Shown piece by piece: positions 1-13,341 of a stretch of DNA of 47,283 nt; positions within the stretch are counted from its first letter, which is position 1, and every line of letters begins with the position of its first letter. Location: assembly GCA_947177485.1 (NCBI GenBank), contig CAMWUR010000011.1, forward strand, positions 1 to 47,283, written 5' to 3'. Made by a program: the position numbers and the translations under genes. The stretch comes from an uncultured Helicobacter sp. GTDB taxonomy: Bacteria; Campylobacterota; Campylobacteria; Campylobacterales; Helicobacteraceae. The notes under the pieces are model-generated. The model had not been told where the DNA came from. It saw only the letters and a program-made list of their open reading frames with translations, and did not search any database.

Positions 1-149
<149 letters not shown>

Positions 150-3177: not shown

Positions 3178-4190
3178 ATGATGCAAAAAACATTAGAAAA
3201 AATACGTGATTCATATCAGAGTAATAAAAAATATTTGGTAATAAAAACATTGATTCAGCTGTTACCACAATCAAAGCTAAAAGAGAGACTATTAAAGGCT
3301 CATTCTTACTTACTTCGGAATATCGTTGTGATTACGGGGCAAAATTGTAGCCTAAAGTGCAAGAATTGCGCGAATTTTTCGCCCTATCTTGCCAAGACAA
3401 TTCCTTTTTACCCTCATGAAGAAATCTGCCAAGACTTGCAGGCGATTACAGATGAATGTCAAATTTTGCGTTTGCAGCTCCAAGGTGGTGAGTTTTTTCT
3501 CCACCCAAATGCTTTGCAGATTTTAGAATATATCGCCAACAATCCGCGCATTCATCAAGTTACGATTGCAACAAATGCAACGATGATTCCCAAAGATTCT
3601 TTGCTTGCTATCATCAAACAAAGCGGTAAAATTTCTGTACGACTTTCGGATTATGGAGCGGTTAACCATAAAAGCGCGCAGAGATTAGAAGCAGTTCTTG
3701 CTGCACATGCGATTCCTTATTTCACACATCATTATGTCCATAGCGATAGCCAATGGAGAGATTGTGGGGGTAAAGATGTGGAACGTTTGGGAGATGATGT
3801 TGTTCAAAAGATTTTTGATGCATGTCTTTTTGGTCGTAATTGTCTGACAATGGAAAATGGTTTGATTTCGCGATGTTCTAGGGGTGTTGTAGCACATATT
3901 GCACAAGGTTTTAGTATGGGCGCTTACGATGGAATCCTTGTGCGCCCTCATGCTAAAAGAGCGTTTGCGACTATCGCACAAACGCATCAAATGAGCGCGG
4001 GGGGGGGGCAGATAATCAAACTTATCTACCAACTTTTGATTTTTTGACATTAAAAAATTTTTTAGATAATCCTAGCCCAATGGAGGCTTGTTATTATTGT
4101 TATGGCACAAGTGGCAAGCCCATACCTCCGGGTGTGCAATTGACACTTGAAGAATTAAAATCTATCTCTAAAACGCATGCTCAAGACTAA
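3178..4190 (+). pseudogene. Radical SAM protein, frame-shifted OFF by a G10 tract (reversible)
   Basis: As sequenced the ORF is 3178-4047 (289 aa). It has a radical-SAM cluster CX3CX2C at C57, C61 and C64, and a GGE motif (QGGEFF) typical of SAM binding. The last 13 residues after the G10 tract (3999-4008) look spurious. In the frame reached by adding one G, translation continues from about 4011 to TAA 4188-4190, giving 337 aa and adding a segment with ACYYCYGTSGK. Its cysteines resemble an auxiliary SPASM/Twitch cluster ligand set, together with CLFGRNC and RCSRG before the tract. The present sequence therefore encodes an incomplete enzyme, and an 11-G variant would restore it. The substrate is unknown; it is probably a sugar or a small precursor in the glycan pathway. 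ATG 3178 overlaps the stop of the upstream gene only in that gene's 11-G frame. Confidence 0.8.
3999..4008 (+). repeat. G10 contingency tract in the radical SAM gene (OFF)
   Basis: Ten G residues after ATGAGCGC. The frame before the tract and the coding frame after it differ by one base; 11 G joins them. The state in this sequence is OFF. Confidence 0.9.
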
Positions 4191-4201: not shown

Positions 4202-5533
4202 ATGTCATTCACCACCACAACGACCGTATCATTTGCTGACAATGCCACAGCGCAACAACTCTATGCAGCAGGAAAATATCAAGAAGCACTTGCCGAATAT
4301 CATAGACTTGTTGTGAGCAATCCTGTTGCAGCAAACTATCTTGGTTTGGCGCAAACCTACACAAAGCTCAACCACACAATCCATGCGATTGAGGCGCTCA
4401 ACGATGGCATTGCGCGCAATCCTCAAAGCATTGAACTCCAACTCATGCTTGCACAAACCTATCTTGGAATGCACAATGCAAATGCTGCAAAGAATATTGT
4501 CGAGCCACTCTATCCAAACCATCAAGACAATTTAACTCTTGTTGCACTCTATATGAATGTTTTGATTGCACTTGGTGATTATCAAAAGGGGCTAGAACTT
4601 GTTCCGTTTTTGAACGAAAACGCGAGCAACCATGCAGGAATCTTGAACAATATCGGACTCATCTATATCGAAATGGGAGATATGCACAATGCGATTACAC
4701 ATTTTCGCAAAGGTTTTAGAACGATTATCGCAAATCCATTGTCTAAGGCAGCGCCAAAGGCGCAAGAGTTTATGGACCAAGGGAGCGCAAAGGCTGGGCT
4801 GCTTGCTATCAAGAAAACACTTGATGAAATTGGTGTGCCTTTTTTATTAGCTGGAGGTACAATTCTTGGAATCTATCGTGATGGTGATATTTTACCGCAT
4901 GATAAAGACGTTGACTTAGGGATTCCGTGGGGAGTTCCACGAGCCGAGCTCATTCATACGCTCCGCCACTATAACTTTGTTTGTAACTATACCGAAGAGG
5001 ACATTGTGGGAGAAAAAGGGCAATGGAACATTAGCGTTGTACATGTGCCCACCGGCACAACGATTGATTTTTTCTTCTGCAAGGTTGAAGGCAATAGGCT
5101 CATTATAGGGCTTGACAAAAACGGCAAAGTATTGCAAAACCATTTTACAAACACAGGACGTTGTCAAATCGAATATGCAGGCGAAACATTCTGGACATTT
5201 GGTCATCTTGACAAACATTTTGAAGAATTTTATGGCAAAGATTGGCGCGTTCCACAGGCGAATTACAATACCCTTATTATGTCAGGTTCTGTCTATGACC
5301 CCGATGGTGTTGGAATCGCGTTGTGCTATAACCATTGTCTTGGAGCACTTTGCGAGGCGTATTATAAAAAGGGACATGGGTATGCGATGCAACTTCTAAG
5401 TGTGCATGATGACCCGCTTTTGCAGAAACTTAAAGATTATTTGGAGAAGAACATTAAAGAGGAATGGTATCCGCCCATTCCCTTGCGCAAAAAGCGCACG
5501 AACAATCAAGATTTGTTTGGAATCAAGGATTAA
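4202..5533 (+). CDS. TPR-LicD fusion: putative CDP/CMP-linked group transferase
   Basis: A 443-aa protein. Residues 15-175 form about four TPR-like helical repeats (for example QLYAAGKYQEALAEYHRL and NNIGLIYIEMGDMHNAI). From residue 197 it matches the LicD/fukutin nucleotidyltransferase-like fold: LLAGGTILGIYRDGDILPH at 215-233 and the acidic DKDVDLGI at 234-241, where the DxD residues bind metal. LicD proteins move phosphocholine, and fukutins move ribitol phosphate, from CDP donors to sugars. Beside a TagD-like cytidylyltransferase and a cytidylyltransferase-PEP mutase, this is the best candidate in the window for attaching a CDP- or CMP-activated group, possibly hydroxyethylphosphonate, to a glycan. 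The substrate is inferred. ATG 4202 follows AAAAGGAGTTAAC. No signal peptide is seen, so it is cytoplasmic. Confidence 0.75.
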   Translation: MSFTTTTTVSFADNATAQQLYAAGKYQEALAEYHRLVVSNPVAANYLGLAQTYTKLNHTIHAIEALNDGIARNPQSIELQLMLAQTYLGMHNANAAKNIVEPLYPNHQDNLTLVALYMNVLIALGDYQKGLELVPFLNENASNHAGILNNIGLIYIEMGDMHNAITHFRKGFRTIIANPLSKAAPKAQEFMDQGSAKAGLLAIKKTLDEIGVPFLLAGGTILGIYRDGDILPHDKDVDLGIPWGVPRAELIHTLRHYNFVCNYTEEDIVGEKGQWNISVVHVPTGTTIDFFFCKVEGNRLIIGLDKNGKVLQNHFTNTGRCQIEYAGETFWTFGHLDKHFEEFYGKDWRVPQANYNTLIMSGSVYDPDGVGIALCYNHCLGALCEAYYKKGHGYAMQLLSVHDDPLLQKLKDYLEKNIKEEWYPPIPLRKKRTNNQDLFGIKD

Positions 5534-7817: not shown

Positions 7818-8182
7818 TTTGTGGAAATTATGAGATGCAACGTTAGCGCTCAACATGACATATTTTATAACCCACCCCCTTACCCCCTCCGCAAGGGAGG
7901 GGGAATTATTTTGCAGACGATGAAAATGGAGGTGCGACTTTAGTCGCACTTTGGTTGGTATACGATTTTGATATTTTTTGTGCGGTTAAAACCGCACCTC
8001 CAAAGATTCTATTTGTCATGTTGAGCGTGAGCGAAACATCTCAATGATTTCAACAACAGTGAGATTCTTCACTCGCTTACGCGAGTTCAGAACGACAAAA
8101 TAGGGGCTCTTACTTATTGATTGCCGTGCTTGCGCGACTCGTTTGCAACAACAGCAGATTTTCATCTTTCAAAATTTTGCGC
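7818..8182. other. Gene-free gap filled with palindromic repeats
   Basis: No credible gene is seen. The gap contains a 29-base segment at 7832-7860 ending CTCAACATGACA, and a G/C hairpin (CCCCCTCC 7883-7890 with GGAGGGGG 7896-7903). It also holds the GGAGGTGCG element at 7928-8001, a segment related to 7832-7860 in opposite orientation at 8014-8041, and a small ACTCGCTTACGCGAGT palindrome near 8071. Similar pieces recur near 18.7 kb, 19.1 kb, 22.9 kb and 47.2 kb. Confidence 0.7.
7928..8001. repeat. GGAGGTGCG palindromic element, copy 1
   Basis: Begins GGAGGTGCGACTTTAGTCGCACT and ends GTGCGGTTAAAACCGCACCTCC. The outer nine bases are perfect inverted repeats (GGAGGTGCG/CGCACCTCC), and each end can also fold into its own small hairpin. 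The sequence resembles copies at 18691-18748, 22897-22955 and 47251 onward, so it is a dispersed, possibly mobile, non-coding element. Confidence 0.8.
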
Positions 8183-8188
8183 TATAAT
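8183..8188 (+). promoter_or_regulatory. Sigma-70-type -10 box upstream of the phosphonate genes
   Basis: A perfect TATAAT lies in GCGCTATAATTAG, 35 bases before the ATG of the short upstream ORF and 137 bases before the PEP mutase gene. No clear -35 is visible, as is common in Helicobacter. Confidence 0.6.
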
Positions 8189-8222: not shown

Positions 8223-8282
8223 ATGAAAACACTCACAAACAGCGTTGCCACAGAGGCTGCGGGGGGGGGGGCCGCAGAGTAG
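8223..8282 (+). CDS. Short upstream ORF carrying a G11 tract (possible translational switch)
   Basis: ATG 8223 follows GAGAGAGACATA and, with 11 G, encodes 19 residues (starting MKTLTNSVATEAA) before TAG 8280-8282. The stop position depends on the tract: with 10 G it moves to 8287-8289. With 9 or 12 G the ORF runs to TAA 8333-8335, past the ATG of the PEP mutase gene at 8325. It could be a leader peptide whose frame affects translation of the phosphonate genes, or the stub of a gene lost by recombination at the tract. No family is recognised. Confidence 0.4.
   Translation: MKTLTNSVATEAAGGGAAE
8261..8271 (+). repeat. G11 contingency tract upstream of the PEP mutase gene
   Basis: Eleven G residues between GAGGCTGC and CCGCAGAG, 53 bases before the PEP mutase start. 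The flanks resemble those of the tract at 461-471 (GAGCCTGC ... CAGAG). Confidence 0.9.
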
Positions 8283-8324: not shown

Positions 8325-9644
8325 ATGCAGCCTAATGTCTATGTTGCAATGAGTGCAGACCTCATTCACCCCGGGCATATCAACATCTTGCGCGTTGCGC
8401 GCGAGACGGCAGACAAGATTGGGGCGGTTGTAGTCGTTGGGCTGCTGACGGATAGCGCGATTGCGTCCTATAAACGGCTGCCCTATATGACATTCGAGCA
8501 GCGCAAAGCGGTTGTGGAGAGCCTGCAATTTGTTGATAGGGTGATTCCGCAAGAAACATTGAGCTATGCGCCGAATATCCGTGCGCTGCTGCCGCGCTTT
8601 GTTGTGCATGGCGATGATTGGAAAAGCGGCAAACAAGCTGTTGAGCGCGAGGCGGTGATTGCGCTGCTGCGCGAGCTTGGGTGCGGCGAGCTACTCGAGG
8701 TTGCCTACACACCGGGCATTAGCAGCACGCAACTCAACGAAAACGCACGCGCACTTGGAATCGCCACCAACGCGCGCCTTAGCCTCTTGCGGCGGCTTGT
8801 GCGCGCTAAAGCGCCGATTCGCATTTGCGAGGCGCACAGCGCGATTAGCGCGCTGATTGTGCAAGAAGCTTTTTGTATGGACAACGGGCAAAAGGTTGAG
8901 TTCGATGGCTTTTGGAGCAGCTCGCTGACGGATTCGACATCACGTGGCAAGCCTGACATCGAGGCTGTCGAGCTTAGCAGTCGCTTGCAGACGATTAATG
9001 AGGTTTTCGAGGTAACGACAAAACCGCTGATTTATGACGCCGACACAGGCGGTCGGATTGAGCATTTTGGCTTTAGCGTGCGCAGCCTTGAGCGAACAGG
9101 CGTGTCGGCTGTGATTATCGAAGACAAGACAGGTCTTAAGAAAAACTCGCTGCTGGGCAACGACGTGCCGCAAACGCAAGAGAATGTCGCTGATTTTTGC
9201 GATAAGATTACGGCAGGCAAAAAGGCGCAGATTACGCAAGATTTTATGATTATCGCGCGAATCGAATCGCTGATTCTTGACAAGGGGCAAGAGGACGCGC
9301 TCAATCGCGCTTTTGCTTATCGCGATGCGGGGGCGGACGGAATCATGATTCACTCGCGCGCCAAAACTCCGCACGAGGTTTTGGAGTTTGTCGCGAGCTT
9401 TCGCGCCAAAGACAGCACAACGCCAATCGTTGTCGTCCCGACAAGTTTCAACACCATTAGCGCCAAAGAGCTTGCGAATGCGGGCGTGAATATCATCATC
9501 TATGCCAATCACCTCTTGCGTGCGAGCTTTGTCGCGATGCGCAATGTCGCCAACGGAATCCTTGCGCATGACCGAAGCAGCGAAATTGAGCCCCAATGCC
9601 TCAAGGTTGAGGAGATTTTGCGACTCATTCCGGGGACGGCGTAG
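8325..9644 (+). CDS. Bifunctional cytidylyltransferase-phosphoenolpyruvate mutase
   Basis: A 439-aa fusion. Residues 1-145 form an HxGH cytidylyltransferase (HPGH at 15-18, GISSTQL at 131-137). Residues 165-439 form a PEP mutase of the isocitrate lyase superfamily: FWSSSL near the active site, DADTGG at 238-243, and the diagnostic [10 protein letters not shown] at 266-275, which fits the PEP mutase signature EDKx5NS and differs from the isocitrate lyase catalytic motif. PEP mutase forms the C-P bond of phosphonopyruvate from PEP. The fused domain probably makes the CMP ester of the final phosphonate. ATG 8325 has a good site (AAGGAG, 8314-8319); the same frame has a stop just upstream (8304-8306), so the start is secure. 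The decarboxylase and reductase for the next steps lie 1.5 kb downstream. Similar fusions are known for Bacteroides aepX. Confidence 0.88.
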
Positions 9645-9716
9645 GGTGCAAGCTTGTGGTTTTAAGATTCCGCTTAGTGTTTCTATGGACACGAGGGGAG
9701 ATTGGAGGGAATCGTT

Positions 9717-9821
9717 TTGGATAATAGAATAAAGGTTTATATTGAAGGGGGCGCTGGAATACTAAACAGCCAATTACGAGAAGCCTTTATGTCCCTAATG
9801 AAACAATTTAAAACAAAATAA
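9717..9821 (+). pseudogene. Possible DUF4276-like remnant
   Basis: A 34-codon frame, possibly from TTG 9717, contains RIKVYIEGGAGILNSQLREA and ends at TAA 9819-9821. The motif resembles the N-terminus of DUF4276 proteins (V-Y-x-E-G-G followed by LR.aF), which usually pair with an AAA ATPase in putative defence modules. Only the first strand and helix remain, and the next gene starts 13 bases later. If correct, it marks an earlier insertion or deletion event between phosphonate genes. The match is from memory and short. Confidence 0.35.
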
Positions 9822-9833
9822 GGGAACAATACC

Positions 9834-11145
9834 ATGAAAAACTTCCTTTTGCGCCTCTTTATCGCATTTCTCGACTTTTTGCATGTACGTTTCCCGCCAA
9901 AATATTGCTTTATCGTCCTCACCTCGCATGGCAATGGGCATAATGCGTTGTGGGTCTTTCTGCAAAAATGTGGTGTGCGGCTCATTCGTATCTTTATGTT
10001 GCGGAGCAATTATGCACAATTTTGTTTCGAGATTTTCAAAAACCTTTGGACATTGCCAAAGAATCAATGCATGGCTTTGAGCTTTGATTCGTGCAATTTT
10101 GAAAAAGAAAACAAAATTTATGCAAAGATTACCCAAAAGGTTCCCGCACTGCTGCTTGTGCGCGACCCAATCTCTGTCATCTGCTCGCATATTAATCTGT
10201 ATCGTTTCTGGAATCATGGCGCGATTCTTGACAAAGACGGCGTGTTGCAGCTTCCAAAAGAGCCCTATTGTTTGGGCTACGACACAGAGTGTCTGGAGAT
10301 GAAAACGACAGACAGACCCGATATACGCGCCGCACATCTCTGGGTAGCGCTTATCGATGGCGATTATACACATGTTGGCGGTTTTGATTATGTGCGCGAA
10401 AGCGATAAGCAGCGGAATCTCACGTGTATCTGCACCTACACAAGCAGTTTTGAGGCACTCAAAGAGACAATCTCTAGCCTTACAATCATCGATATGAGCG
10501 CCATTCTGCCCGAGAATGCGTTCGCAACGATGACGCGCCTTGCGCAGCAATTTGGCTTCGTGCCGCCGCGCGAGCAGAACCGCGCATTTTACGAGGCAAA
10601 ACTCTATGGTAGAGAATCCTTGCTCTACCCGCTCACACTTAATGTTGGTGCGCTTTTTGGTCGGGCTGTAAAAGCGACAAATAATGTCGCTTTTACCCAT
10701 GATGTTCGGGGGGGGGGGCAGGATTTGCTCATAATATAGCAATGCACAACGGCTCGAATATTTTGGCTTTGGCGATTCTGTGCCTTTTGATTTTGTTGCA
10801 AGCAACAGCGGAGGCGCGGCGCGTTGGTATTGCAAGGCATGCGAGGCGCAACGTTTCGCAAAGCTTGATGAGGTAAAAAGAGGCATGATTGCAGAGGCAA
10901 TGCGGCAGCTTGAGGCATGGTGTGGCTTGCAACAGCAGAATATGGCAGCTCACAAGGTGAGCGAAGACGACCTCTTCGCCTATCTTGCCGCCAACCCAGC
11001 GCTTTTTGCGCGGCTCGCAAAGGCTTTGGAATACGAAACAAGCATCGTCCGCCTTCAAGCGCCAAAGATTTTTGCGCAATGGCGATTTTATGCACAATTT
11101 TTGGCGCGTTTGCGTACAATGCCAACACACCAAAACCGAACATGA
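9834..11145 (+). pseudogene. Interrupted gene: sulfotransferase/DUF2972-like N-part and a C-part in another frame, split at a G11 tract
   Basis: The first part, 9834-10739, encodes 301 aa: an N-terminal hydrophobic helix, a VLTSHGNGHNALW loop and a VPALLLVRDPISVICSHIN segment. This recalls the PAPS-binding region of sulfotransferase-like folds and the DUF2972 family common in Helicobacter surface loci. It ends nine codons after a G11 tract. A second coding stretch in the +1 frame runs from about 10738 to TGA 11143-11145, with good composition (LEYFGFGDSVPFDFVASNSG and a helical C-terminus), but it has no convincing start. In that frame TAA 10732-10734 lies between the tract and the stretch, so tract length alone does not join the parts. 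It is either a decayed gene or a chimera formed at the tract. It sits between the PEP mutase and decarboxylase genes. Confidence 0.55.
10708..10718 (+). repeat. G11 contingency tract in the interrupted gene
   Basis: Eleven G residues after GATGTTC. With 11 the first ORF ends at 10739. A 10- or 13-G tract would end at TAA 10732-10734. A 9- or 12-G tract would run on to about 10875 in a poor-quality frame. Confidence 0.9.
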
Positions 11146-11158
11146 TAAGGAAATACCA

Positions 11159-12298
11159 ATGCTACAAACCGAGATTCTTGGCGATTTGCTGTTGCGCATG
11201 GGCTGCAAAGACTTTAGCGGTGTGCCGTGCAGCTTTCTCGCGCCGCTGTTTAATTACGCGCTCAACAATGGGCGCTTCGCAATGGCAAACAACGAGGGAG
11301 ATGCCGTGGCGCTCGCCAGCGGCATAAGCCTCGCGCATTTGCAAAGCAGTCCGCGCCGCTTTGGTGTCGTGTTGTTGCAAAACAGCGGGCTATCTAATGC
11401 ACTAAGCCCACTTACAAGCCTCAATCATACTTTTGAGATTCCCATTCTCGGCTTTGTCTCGTTGCGCGGCGAGCGCGATTCAAACGGGCACAACACAGAC
11501 GAGCCGCAGCATAACCTAATGGGCGCAATCACCGACAAGCTTCTTGCATTGTGTGAGATGGACTATGCGTTTTTGACCGAGAATTCGAGCGAGCTAGAAT
11601 CCCAGCTTGCGCATGCACAGGGTGTCTTGCGAAGCGGTAAAAGCTTCTTTTTCATCGTGCGCAAAGCCTGCCTCTCGCCCGTTGCCTTGCAGCAAGCGCC
11701 CGAGCAAGACAATGCGTTGCCCACGCGCCTCGCCGCGCTTGAGCGCATTCAGAATCTTGCACAAAATCGCGCGGTTGTGTTCGCCACAACGGGCAAGACG
11801 GGGCGCGAGCTCTACGAGCTTGGCGATTTGCCCAATCAGCTTTATATGGTTGGCTCGATGGGCTGTGTGGGCACGTTTGGTGTTGGAATCGCGCATGGAA
11901 CGTGCCGCAAAGTCATCGCGATTGATGGCGATGGCGCGGCGCTTATGCGGCTTGGCGCGTTCGCAATGAACGCACAGATTGCGCGCGAGGCAAACGCAGG
12001 CAACTTCTGCCATGTCTTGCTCGACAACCAAAGCCACGACAGCACGGGCGGGCAACAAAGCCTCTCGCCTTTTGTCGATTTCGCCGCTGTGGCGCGGGCT
12101 TGCGGCTATGCGCACGCAAAACTTTGCGCAAGTCTCGAAGAGCTCGAACATGAGCTCGAAACATTCCTCGCCCAAAGCGCGGGCGGGGCGGTGTTTTTGG
12201 CGCTGCGAATCCAAAGAGGGAGCAAGAAGGATTTGTCGCGTCCAAAAATCGCTCCGCGCGAGGTCGCGCAACGTCTTTTTGGATTCTTGGAGCGCTGA
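11159..12298 (+). CDS. ppd: Phosphonopyruvate decarboxylase
   Basis: A 379-aa thiamin-diphosphate enzyme, the usual Ppd length. NEGDAV near residue 45 supplies the Glu that contacts the TPP pyrimidine. The C-terminal half carries the TPP-magnesium motif: IAIDGDGAALMRLGA, followed about 26 residues later by NQSHDSTGGQ, a combination typical of Ppd and related sulfopyruvate decarboxylases. It converts phosphonopyruvate irreversibly to phosphonoacetaldehyde, pulling the unfavourable PEP mutase equilibrium forward. The start is ATG 11159 after GATAAGGAAATACCA; a longer frame upstream has poor composition and overlaps the preceding gene. Its stop overlaps the ATG of the alcohol dehydrogenase (TGATG), so the two are translationally coupled. 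Confidence 0.88.
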   Translation: MLQTEILGDLLLRMGCKDFSGVPCSFLAPLFNYALNNGRFAMANNEGDAVALASGISLAHLQSSPRRFGVVLLQNSGLSNALSPLTSLNHTFEIPILGFVSLRGERDSNGHNTDEPQHNLMGAITDKLLALCEMDYAFLTENSSELESQLAHAQGVLRSGKSFFFIVRKACLSPVALQQAPEQDNALPTRLAALERIQNLAQNRAVVFATTGKTGRELYELGDLPNQLYMVGSMGCVGTFGVGIAHGTCRKVIAIDGDGAALMRLGAFAMNAQIAREANAGNFCHVLLDNQSHDSTGGQQSLSPFVDFAAVARACGYAHAKLCASLEELEHELETFLAQSAGGAVFLALRIQRGSKKDLSRPKIAPREVAQRLFGFLER

Positions 12299-13341
12299 TG
12301 TTTGCCTACCATAACCCCGTGCGAATCGTGTTTGACACGACATTCGAATCCGCGCTTTCTTCGCTTGCGCCTGAAGGCGAGATTCTGCTTATTGTCTCTG
12401 CGAGCCTCGCGCGGCGCGGGATTGTTGAGCGCGTGCGTGCGCATGCAAACATCATGCAAGTCGTGGATTTTGTTGTGCCCAATCCCGAGCTAGACGCGCT
12501 GCAAAACCTCAAAGCTTCGCTTGGGCAATACCGCGCGATTCTTGCCATTGGCGGTGGGAGCGTGATAGACACCGCAAAATTTCTGTCCGTGCGCGGCGAT
12601 GTTGCGGTGCAAAACGATTCACTAGAGATTCGGAATCTCGCGGGCAGCGCGCCCATTTTTGCGTTTCCCTCAACGGCGGGCAGCGGCTCGGAGCTCACGC
12701 CGTGGGCGACAATCTGGGACAAGGCGTGCGGGCGCAAATATTCGTTGCACGATTCCTGCCTGTTCCCGCACACGGCGTTCTATGTCCCCGAGCTCACATT
12801 GAGCCTGCCGCTTTTGCCAAGCGTGCATAGCGCGCTCGATAGCCTAAGCCACGCGTTTGAATCGGTCTGGAACAAAAACGCAAACCCGATTGCGACAATG
12901 CATGCGCTCGAGTCGATTCGCCTCACACTCGAGAATCTCCCGATTCTCGCGCAGAATCTGCACGACATACACGCACGTACAATGCAAATGCGCGCAAGTA
13001 TGCACGCAGCGCTTGCATTTTGCAGCACACAAACGGCGCTTGCGCATGCCATTAGCTACCCGCTCACAATGCATCTTGGCTTGCCACATGGGCTTGCGTG
13101 CAGCTTCACCTTGCCCCTGCTTTTGCGGCATTGCGAAGAATCGGCACGGCAATTGCTTGCACCTTTTCAGTCGCGCCTCGAGCGGCTTTTTGAGACATTG
13201 CACATCGCGACCAATCCGAGTGATTATGGAATCACAAAAGATTTCGCAGATGCCATTTTTCAGAATCTCAATGCGCGTGCGCAAAATGCGCGGCTCGATG
13301 TCGGCGCTGTTTATCATGAGTTTATCAGTTTTTGCAAGTAA
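12298..13341 (+). CDS. Iron-containing alcohol dehydrogenase, probable phosphonoacetaldehyde reductase
   Basis: A 347-aa group III alcohol dehydrogenase. The NAD(P)-binding GGGSVIDTAK is in the N-terminal domain, followed by PSTAGSGSELTPWA. Metal ligands are visible in ALDSLSHAFE (Asp and His), AHAISYPL (His) and GLPHGLACSF (His). Within phosphonate clusters this family includes PhpC-like enzymes that reduce phosphonoacetaldehyde to 2-hydroxyethylphosphonate. No aminotransferase that would make 2-aminoethylphosphonate is seen in the window, so hydroxyethylphosphonate is the predicted product. ATG 12298 overlaps the ppd stop. Substrate assignment is from context; the fold and metal site are directly visible. 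Confidence 0.82.
   Translation: MFAYHNPVRIVFDTTFESALSSLAPEGEILLIVSASLARRGIVERVRAHANIMQVVDFVVPNPELDALQNLKASLGQYRAILAIGGGSVIDTAKFLSVRGDVAVQNDSLEIRNLAGSAPIFAFPSTAGSGSELTPWATIWDKACGRKYSLHDSCLFPHTAFYVPELTLSLPLLPSVHSALDSLSHAFESVWNKNANPIATMHALESIRLTLENLPILAQNLHDIHARTMQMRASMHAALAFCSTQTALAHAISYPLTMHLGLPHGLACSFTLPLLLRHCEESARQLLAPFQSRLERLFETLHIATNPSDYGITKDFADAIFQNLNARAQNARLDVGAVYHEFISFCK

Follow-up and report, generated by a model that had tools for sequence, protein, structure and literature searches.

Approximately 60% of phosphoenolpyruvate (PEP) mutases are fused to nucleotidyltransferases (PMC6697681), and hence the fusion architecture as such is already known. One such protein is Fom1 of the fosfomycin pathway of Streptomyces wedmorensis, whose cytidylyltransferase domain converts 2-hydroxyethylphosphonate (HEP) and cytidine triphosphate (CTP) to HEP activated with cytidine monophosphate (CMP-HEP) (PMC6697681). 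CMP-activated phosphonates are also found near LicD-like transferases in the Pnt pathways of Treponema, Olsenella and Atopobium (PMC6697681), which lead to 2-aminoethylphosphonate (AEP) and possess a separate MobA-like cytidylyltransferase, PntC. Our analysis concerns a predicted phosphonate operon of an uncultured Helicobacter sp. (assembly GCA_947177485.1, contig CAMWUR010000011.1); the window, i.e. the whole stretch of DNA analysed, comprises 47,283 nt of the forward strand. Polysaccharide B of Bacteroides fragilis carries a phosphonate, and its capsule locus resembles the operon in encoding PEP mutase and the phosphonopyruvate decarboxylase Ppd but differs in producing AEP with an aminotransferase. 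Yu et al. reportedly described, in 2014, phosphonoglycans of the Actinobacteria Glycomyces and Stackebrandtia with HEP on a polysaccharide. The O-methyl phosphoramidate (MeOPN) system of Campylobacter jejuni uses transferases of a family related to the DUF2972 gene of the window, but its chemistry is P-N, not C-P, and it works without a PEP mutase.

We consider it probable that this operon directs HEP synthesis and the conversion of HEP to CMP-HEP, the activated form from which it would be attached to a cell-surface glycan. Its core consists of the following features, all on the + strand:

8325-9644, +, cytidylyltransferase-PEP mutase fusion (pepM), 439 aa
8325-8784, +, N-terminal cytidylyltransferase domain of the fusion (CTP_transf_like; best PDB match 5x3d)
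8787-9644, +, PEP mutase domain (TIGR02320; EDKxxxxxNS motif at 9120-9149)
11159-12298, +, Ppd, 379 aa (TIGR03297; 9iz3 alpha and beta subunits matched in the PDB)
12298-13341, +, iron-dependent alcohol dehydrogenase (Fe-ADH), predicted phosphonoacetaldehyde reductase (TIGR03405 as best NCBIfam model; overlaps ppd by TGATG)

According to this model, the mutase would convert PEP to phosphonopyruvate, Ppd would convert the latter to phosphonoacetaldehyde, and the Fe-ADH, with phosphonoacetaldehyde as its presumed substrate, would produce HEP. The Fom1-type N-terminal domain of the fusion would then form CMP-HEP from HEP and CTP, from which HEP would be transferred to a cell-surface glycan by a putative transferase onto a putative acceptor. 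These core enzymes would be the constant part of the system, with a TylF-type methyltransferase and a DUF2972 transferase as accessory, tract-bearing steps. The sequence gives good support to the predicted route as far as CMP-HEP; the genomic context makes attachment to a surface glycan likely, and we infer that the phosphonate ends on lipopolysaccharide, capsule or flagellin.

An earlier note on this DNA had described the three genes and their motifs at 8325-13341, and our analysis confirms them: a PEP mutase fused to an HxGH cytidylyltransferase, a thiamine pyrophosphate-dependent decarboxylase identified as Ppd, and a metal-complete Fe-ADH that overlaps it by TGATG. The mutase reaches about 409-410.7 bits with TIGR02320 (cut-off 319.6) and carries EDKxxxxxNS at residues 266-275 of the fusion; Ppd scores 337 bits with TIGR03297 (cut-off 312.5) and truly starts at the ATG at 11159, after AAGGA, not at the upstream TTG of the raw open reading frame (ORF). 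The metal ligands D, H, H, H of the Fe-ADH are complete in the alignment (D181, H185 and two later histidines in AHAISYPLTMHLGLPHG). Because the core genes match their families over essentially their full length, chance is not a consideration. The fold of the mutase domain is common in the isocitrate lyase superfamily, and weaker matches to TIGR02321 and PrpB are found; that it is another enzyme of this superfamily, e.g. a phosphonopyruvate hydrolase or a methylisocitrate lyase, is nevertheless scarcely conceivable, given 409 bits, above the cut-off, for TIGR02320 against 156 bits with the hydrolase model, whose cut-off is 374, and 93 bits with PrpB. Furthermore, the phosphonopyruvate hydrolase 2dua has EDKTFPKDTS in place of EDKxxxxxNS, and the genome contains a separate PrpB-like gene on another contig (C72), beside a citrate-synthase-like gene. 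This gene is also the second TIGR02320 match of the genome and was set aside as unrelated to the pathway.

The N-terminal domain retains three intact motifs: HPGH at residues 15-18 (8367-8378), SYKR at 48-51 (8466-8477) and GISST at 131-135 (8715-8729). Its best PDB match is a 160-aa cytidylyltransferase-domain chain deposited as phosphoenolpyruvate phosphomutase (5x3d, E 7.4e-47), which we take to be the Fom1 domain, although the entry name says only phosphoenolpyruvate phosphomutase. Fom1 and the window protein are alike in that an N-terminal PF01467 domain precedes the mutase and that HPGH, SYKR and ISST occur in both. They differ in context: Fom1 serves a diffusible antibiotic, whereas the window represents a locus of the surface-glycan type with poly-G tracts. 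We infer that the domain is a Fom1-type HEP cytidylyltransferase with CMP-HEP as its product. In contrast to the Pnt pathways, a dehydrogenase stands here in place of the aminotransferase, and the active cytidylyltransferase appears to be the fused domain.

The alternative that AEP is made by means of an aminotransferase encoded elsewhere, the Fe-ADH being incidental, has in its favour that AEP is the commonest surface phosphonate. However, no AepZ/PhnW over the TIGR03301 cut-off was found near the operon or in the whole genome (best match 126 bits, cut-off 360.8), so that the earlier note's statement that no aminotransferase is present holds genome-wide at the family cut-off. The 126-bit match, on contig C19, compares with about 330 bits for enzymes of AEP clusters; it fits the aspartate-glyoxylate aminotransferase type better and was rejected as an AepZ. 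The phyletic distribution bears on the same question. In a survey of 121 Helicobacteraceae genomes, 29 possess a strong PEP mutase match, and two main layouts recur: pepM-[tylF]-ppd-feADH-(licD), often with a TylF methyltransferase and sometimes with LicD, and pepM-ppd-methyltransferase-pntC-aepZ, with a separate MobA-like PntC cytidylyltransferase. By manual count, the feADH layout occurs in 14 genomes, the aepZ layout in six, both in four and neither in five. The four genomes with both layouts speak for the aminotransferase alternative; they include the sister species G001, in which feADH, pntC and aepZ lie in one cluster (L134). Against it, the fused cytidylyltransferase of the window is of the type that accompanies feADH, not the altered type that accompanies aepZ, and no counterpart of the MobA-like PntC that Helicobacter AEP clusters encode separately was found in the window. 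We therefore regard AEP production in this organism as unlikely. Some observations on relatives may be added: a cultured relative, H. equorum (L003), possesses the HEP-type cluster; the single cluster of G001, whose PntC gene carries a G12 tract, suggests that both HEP and AEP are made there; in five genomes of another genus of the family, g6 (L157-L161), pepM-ppd occurs with neither Fe-ADH nor AepZ found nearby, and the fused domain keeps HxGH and SYKR; in G003 (L135, about position 3552), one TGA interrupts the PEP mutase gene.

The state of the N-terminal domain was compared with the pathway across 94 cytidylyltransferase-PEP mutase fusions, i.e. the window and 93 other loci, classed by the genes around them. 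Of the 42 Fe-ADH loci, 36 retain all three motifs intact, but none of the 28 AepZ loci does so. In five of the six exceptions among the Fe-ADH loci, HxGH and YKR are retained and the third motif alone deviates; the remaining one is unaligned over the motifs. In the AepZ loci, the second histidine is mostly lost (HPGI, HPGL, HPGN), while the Helicobacter AEP types keep HAGH and lose the basic loop. The loci were collected with six search patterns taken from the window's own fusion protein, two of them from the N-terminal domain; sampling is therefore biased towards window-like N-terminal domains, a bias which runs counter to the finding of 0/28. A tree of the mutase domain alone requires five pathway changes and provides four independent contrasts, and the motif state moved in the same direction in a mean of 3.7 of the four over 200 random pairings, never in the opposite direction. 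Two loci with such fusions come from contigs with archaeal titles, Methanobrevibacter (L064) and a Thermoplasmata archaeon (L073), both contigs of metagenome-assembled genomes. Runs of 51-52 identical bases, C or G, form contig ends in the window (1-51) and in locus L165 (3360-3411); they are probably artefacts of assembly or sequencing.

The AEP-type fusions of H. labetoulli (L008) and H. bilis (L067) have mutase domains that are 96-97% identical to that of the HEP-type fusion of H. rappini (L005). Their N-terminal domains, in contrast, are only 52 and 49% identical to that of H. rappini and 68% identical to that of another AEP-type locus (L009). Hence the N-terminal domain follows the pathway, and the mutase, common to both pathways, follows the species group. 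We consider these natural domain swaps the most direct evidence that the N-terminal domain is matched to the end product. Homopolymer tracts occur within the fused pepM of both loci at the interdomain linker (10509; C14 in L067, C10 in L008) and also in L150 (9425). Owing to a frame break near the C14 tract, the H. bilis protein was read as two fragments. In the same species group, Ppd, and in L005 also the Fe-ADH, contains in-frame inserts of tens to more than 100 residues at about three shared positions (L005 6304-8283 and 8249-9865; L008 11290-13731; L067 11674-13566; L001; L006). Their repeat-like content recurs elsewhere in the same loci, and they resemble in-frame insertions of palindromic elements.

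Family scores, motifs, the 5x3d match, the lack of an aminotransferase at the cut-off and the locus association together support the HEP pathway with built-in CMP activation that had been proposed for these genes. What is more challenging is the fate of CMP-HEP. It could be the intermediate of a small diffusible phosphonate, such as a fosfomycin-like antibiotic or methylphosphonate, instead of serving surface decoration; the fused cytidylyltransferase of the fosfomycin pathway makes the same compound (PMC6697681), and the window encodes a radical SAM (S-adenosylmethionine) protein. This protein is devoid of a B12-binding domain in Pfam. In addition, the operon has genes of the glycan type, bearing poly-G tracts, as its neighbours, and related loci carry LicD, glycerophosphotransferase-like and sulfatase-domain membrane proteins. 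A diffusible product therefore seems improbable, although no genome search for later fosfomycin or methylphosphonate enzymes was made. Two of the neighbours are:

3178-4047, radical SAM protein (289 aa; one radical SAM domain)
1260-1688, +, TagD-like cytidylyltransferase (HIGH...GTSST), a neighbour of uncertain role (CTP_transf_like E 1.4e-19; TIGR01518 78 bits, below the cut-off of 165)

The surface-glycan reading also takes in the poly-G tracts, which the earlier note did not mention. Five tracts of G10-G11 lie within the first 11 kb of the window, two of them in the first two of these features:

321-1193, +, TylF-type SAM methyltransferase (Pfam TylF E 9e-16), with a G11 tract at 461-471
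8223-8282, +, short leader ORF, with a G11 tract at 8261-8271
8159-8188, +, sigma-70-like promoter match ahead of the operon (10/12 consensus)

The TylF gene, likewise absent from the earlier note, encodes a protein with 48-57% identity to the methyltransferase that related clusters of the HEP type have between pepM and ppd. One of the three possible frames that follow the tract of the leader ORF extends beyond the first base of the pepM start codon by 10 bases, which makes a switchable translational coupling to pepM possible. The promoter match is suggestive only, as seven matches were found and 4.0 are expected in shuffles. Inverted repeats occupy the intergenic region at 7831-8043, ahead of the operon.

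In related loci, tracts of at least nine are concentrated in accessory genes: they occur in 9/10 copies of TylF (1.4 expected from the overall density), 9/11 of the upstream methyltransferase (1.7), 6/7 of the AEP-cluster methyltransferase (1.0) and 8/8 of the glycerophosphotransferase-like gene (1.9). None was found in the copies of Ppd (0/31; 7.1 expected), Fe-ADH (0/18; 3.5) or AepZ (0/10; 1.9). As the loci are related, P values for the enrichment are only a guide. Tracts of such length vary in H. canadensis (PMC2823697), and two MeOPN-type transferase genes are phase variable in C. jejuni 11168H (PMC3907429). TylF and DUF2972 carry the kind of tract on which phase variation is based in both Campylobacter and Helicobacter, and the decoration can therefore probably be switched through its accessory genes.

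The DUF2972 gene, which the earlier note had passed over, lies between pepM and ppd at 9834-11145 and provides one of two candidates for the transfer step:

9834-10739, +, DUF2972/O-methyl-phosphoramidate-transferase-like protein, first part (NF058596 E 3e-25, DUF2972 E 1.8e-9)
10780-11145, +, DUF2972 protein, second part, in another frame (DUF2972 positions 134-194; NF058596 positions 531-588)
4202-5533, +, TPR-LicD-like protein, alternative candidate phosphonyltransferase

Both parts exceed the Pfam DUF2972 cut-off of 22.2 bits (38.3 for the first, 25.4 for the second), and the first retains HGNGHNA, RDPISVICS, IDMSAI and FGFVPP of the family alignment. With 89 bits for NF058596, far below the cut-off of 600, and 22-26% identity to aligned relatives of the Campylobacter O-methyl-phosphoramidate transferase family, it is a divergent relative. 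A G11 tract occupies 10708-10718, and the reading frame is lost between it and 10740; compared with the relative G004, the sequence directly downstream of the tract is of a different length. The break may reflect phase variation in the off state, a mutation or a faulty assembly. A PDB sequence search with this protein returned chance matches only. The predicted structures are of modest confidence (mean pLDDT 62.5 for the window part, 60.4 for an intact relative), and the best matches in the fold search are mostly sulfotransferases that use 3'-phosphoadenosine 5'-phosphosulfate (PAPS); these matches are weak with the window part (best E 9e-3) and stronger with the relative (6e-4). By our own reading, RDPISVICS (residues 110-118 of the first part) resembles the 3'-phosphate-binding motif of sulfotransferases.

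MeOPN biosynthesis goes via a 3'-phosphorylated cytidine donor (PMC6429109), and the genome contains a gene of the adenosine 5'-phosphosulfate (APS) kinase family; in two loci of genus g6 that were examined (L158, L161), an APS-kinase-like gene follows pepM-ppd. The sulfotransferase-like fold, the 3'-phosphate-like motif, the MeOPN donor and the APS-kinase gene together make an MeOPN-like transfer of HEP possible. In this tentative and, on balance, rather doubtful scheme, CMP-HEP would be 3'-phosphorylated by an APS-kinase-like enzyme, and the poly-G-switched DUF2972 protein, with its sulfotransferase fold, would then move HEP to surface sugars. For the transfer step only, it is quite possible that the DUF2972 protein is instead a PAPS-dependent sulfotransferase unrelated to phosphonate transfer and that the TPR-LicD protein, or a gene elsewhere, attaches HEP. 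PAPS sulfotransferases lead the fold searches of two family members, the genome carries CysD/CysN-like genes besides the APS-kinase-family gene, and in four loci of the HEP type a LicD gene lies next to feADH; the TPR-LicD protein itself is near the LicD threshold of 22.6 bits (22.2 with hmmscan, 23.7 in the genome search). Yet the curated relatives of the DUF2972 protein are Campylobacter O-methyl-phosphoramidate transferases (NF058596), and in the window its gene is flanked by pepM and ppd, while in G004 its C-terminal part lies directly upstream of ppd. We thus regard the DUF2972 protein as a candidate HEP transferase, a sulfotransferase role being about as plausible.

Several points weigh against the model outlined here. 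The Fe-ADH scores 285 bits with TIGR03405, below the curated cut-off of 423.7; none of the 121 Helicobacteraceae genomes reaches this value, and all 17 with a strong match fall below it. We therefore predict that the enzyme works like the phosphonate Fe-ADH and do not assign it to TIGR03405. The association between N-terminal domain and pathway is based on a small number of independent changes (sign test p 0.125-0.25), and four contrasts are too few to reach significance; moreover, some loci end at contig ends, so that a missing neighbour gene is not always meaningful. The tracts are seen, but variation of their length was not observed in this organism. The candidate DUF2972 transferase has a broken reading frame in the present assembly, and at the same position the sister genome G001 has only a 121-aa fragment resembling its N-terminal part. 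Finally, no biochemistry on these Helicobacter proteins was found in the literature.

The enzymes themselves are of known kinds. In the open literature searched, nothing on point was found about phosphonates in Helicobacter; a text match for 'pepM' in a paper on H. mustelae proved to be the column name PepMAP. As far as this literature shows, the Helicobacter setting, the tract-bearing methyltransferase and DUF2972 genes, and the association between N-terminal domain and pathway appear to be undescribed.

If CMP-HEP is indeed handled in the manner of MeOPN, phosphonate decoration would involve a transferase of a new type, and this would suggest why the MeOPN donor bears a 3'-phosphate. For fused PEP mutases in general, a candidate sequence rule emerges: a complete Fom1-type cytidylyltransferase indicates HEP, an altered one AEP. 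The natural domain swaps make this rule testable in vitro with existing proteins. For the Helicobacter family, our analysis predicts C-P bonds on bacterial surfaces, a strong PEP mutase match being present in 29 of the 121 sampled genomes.

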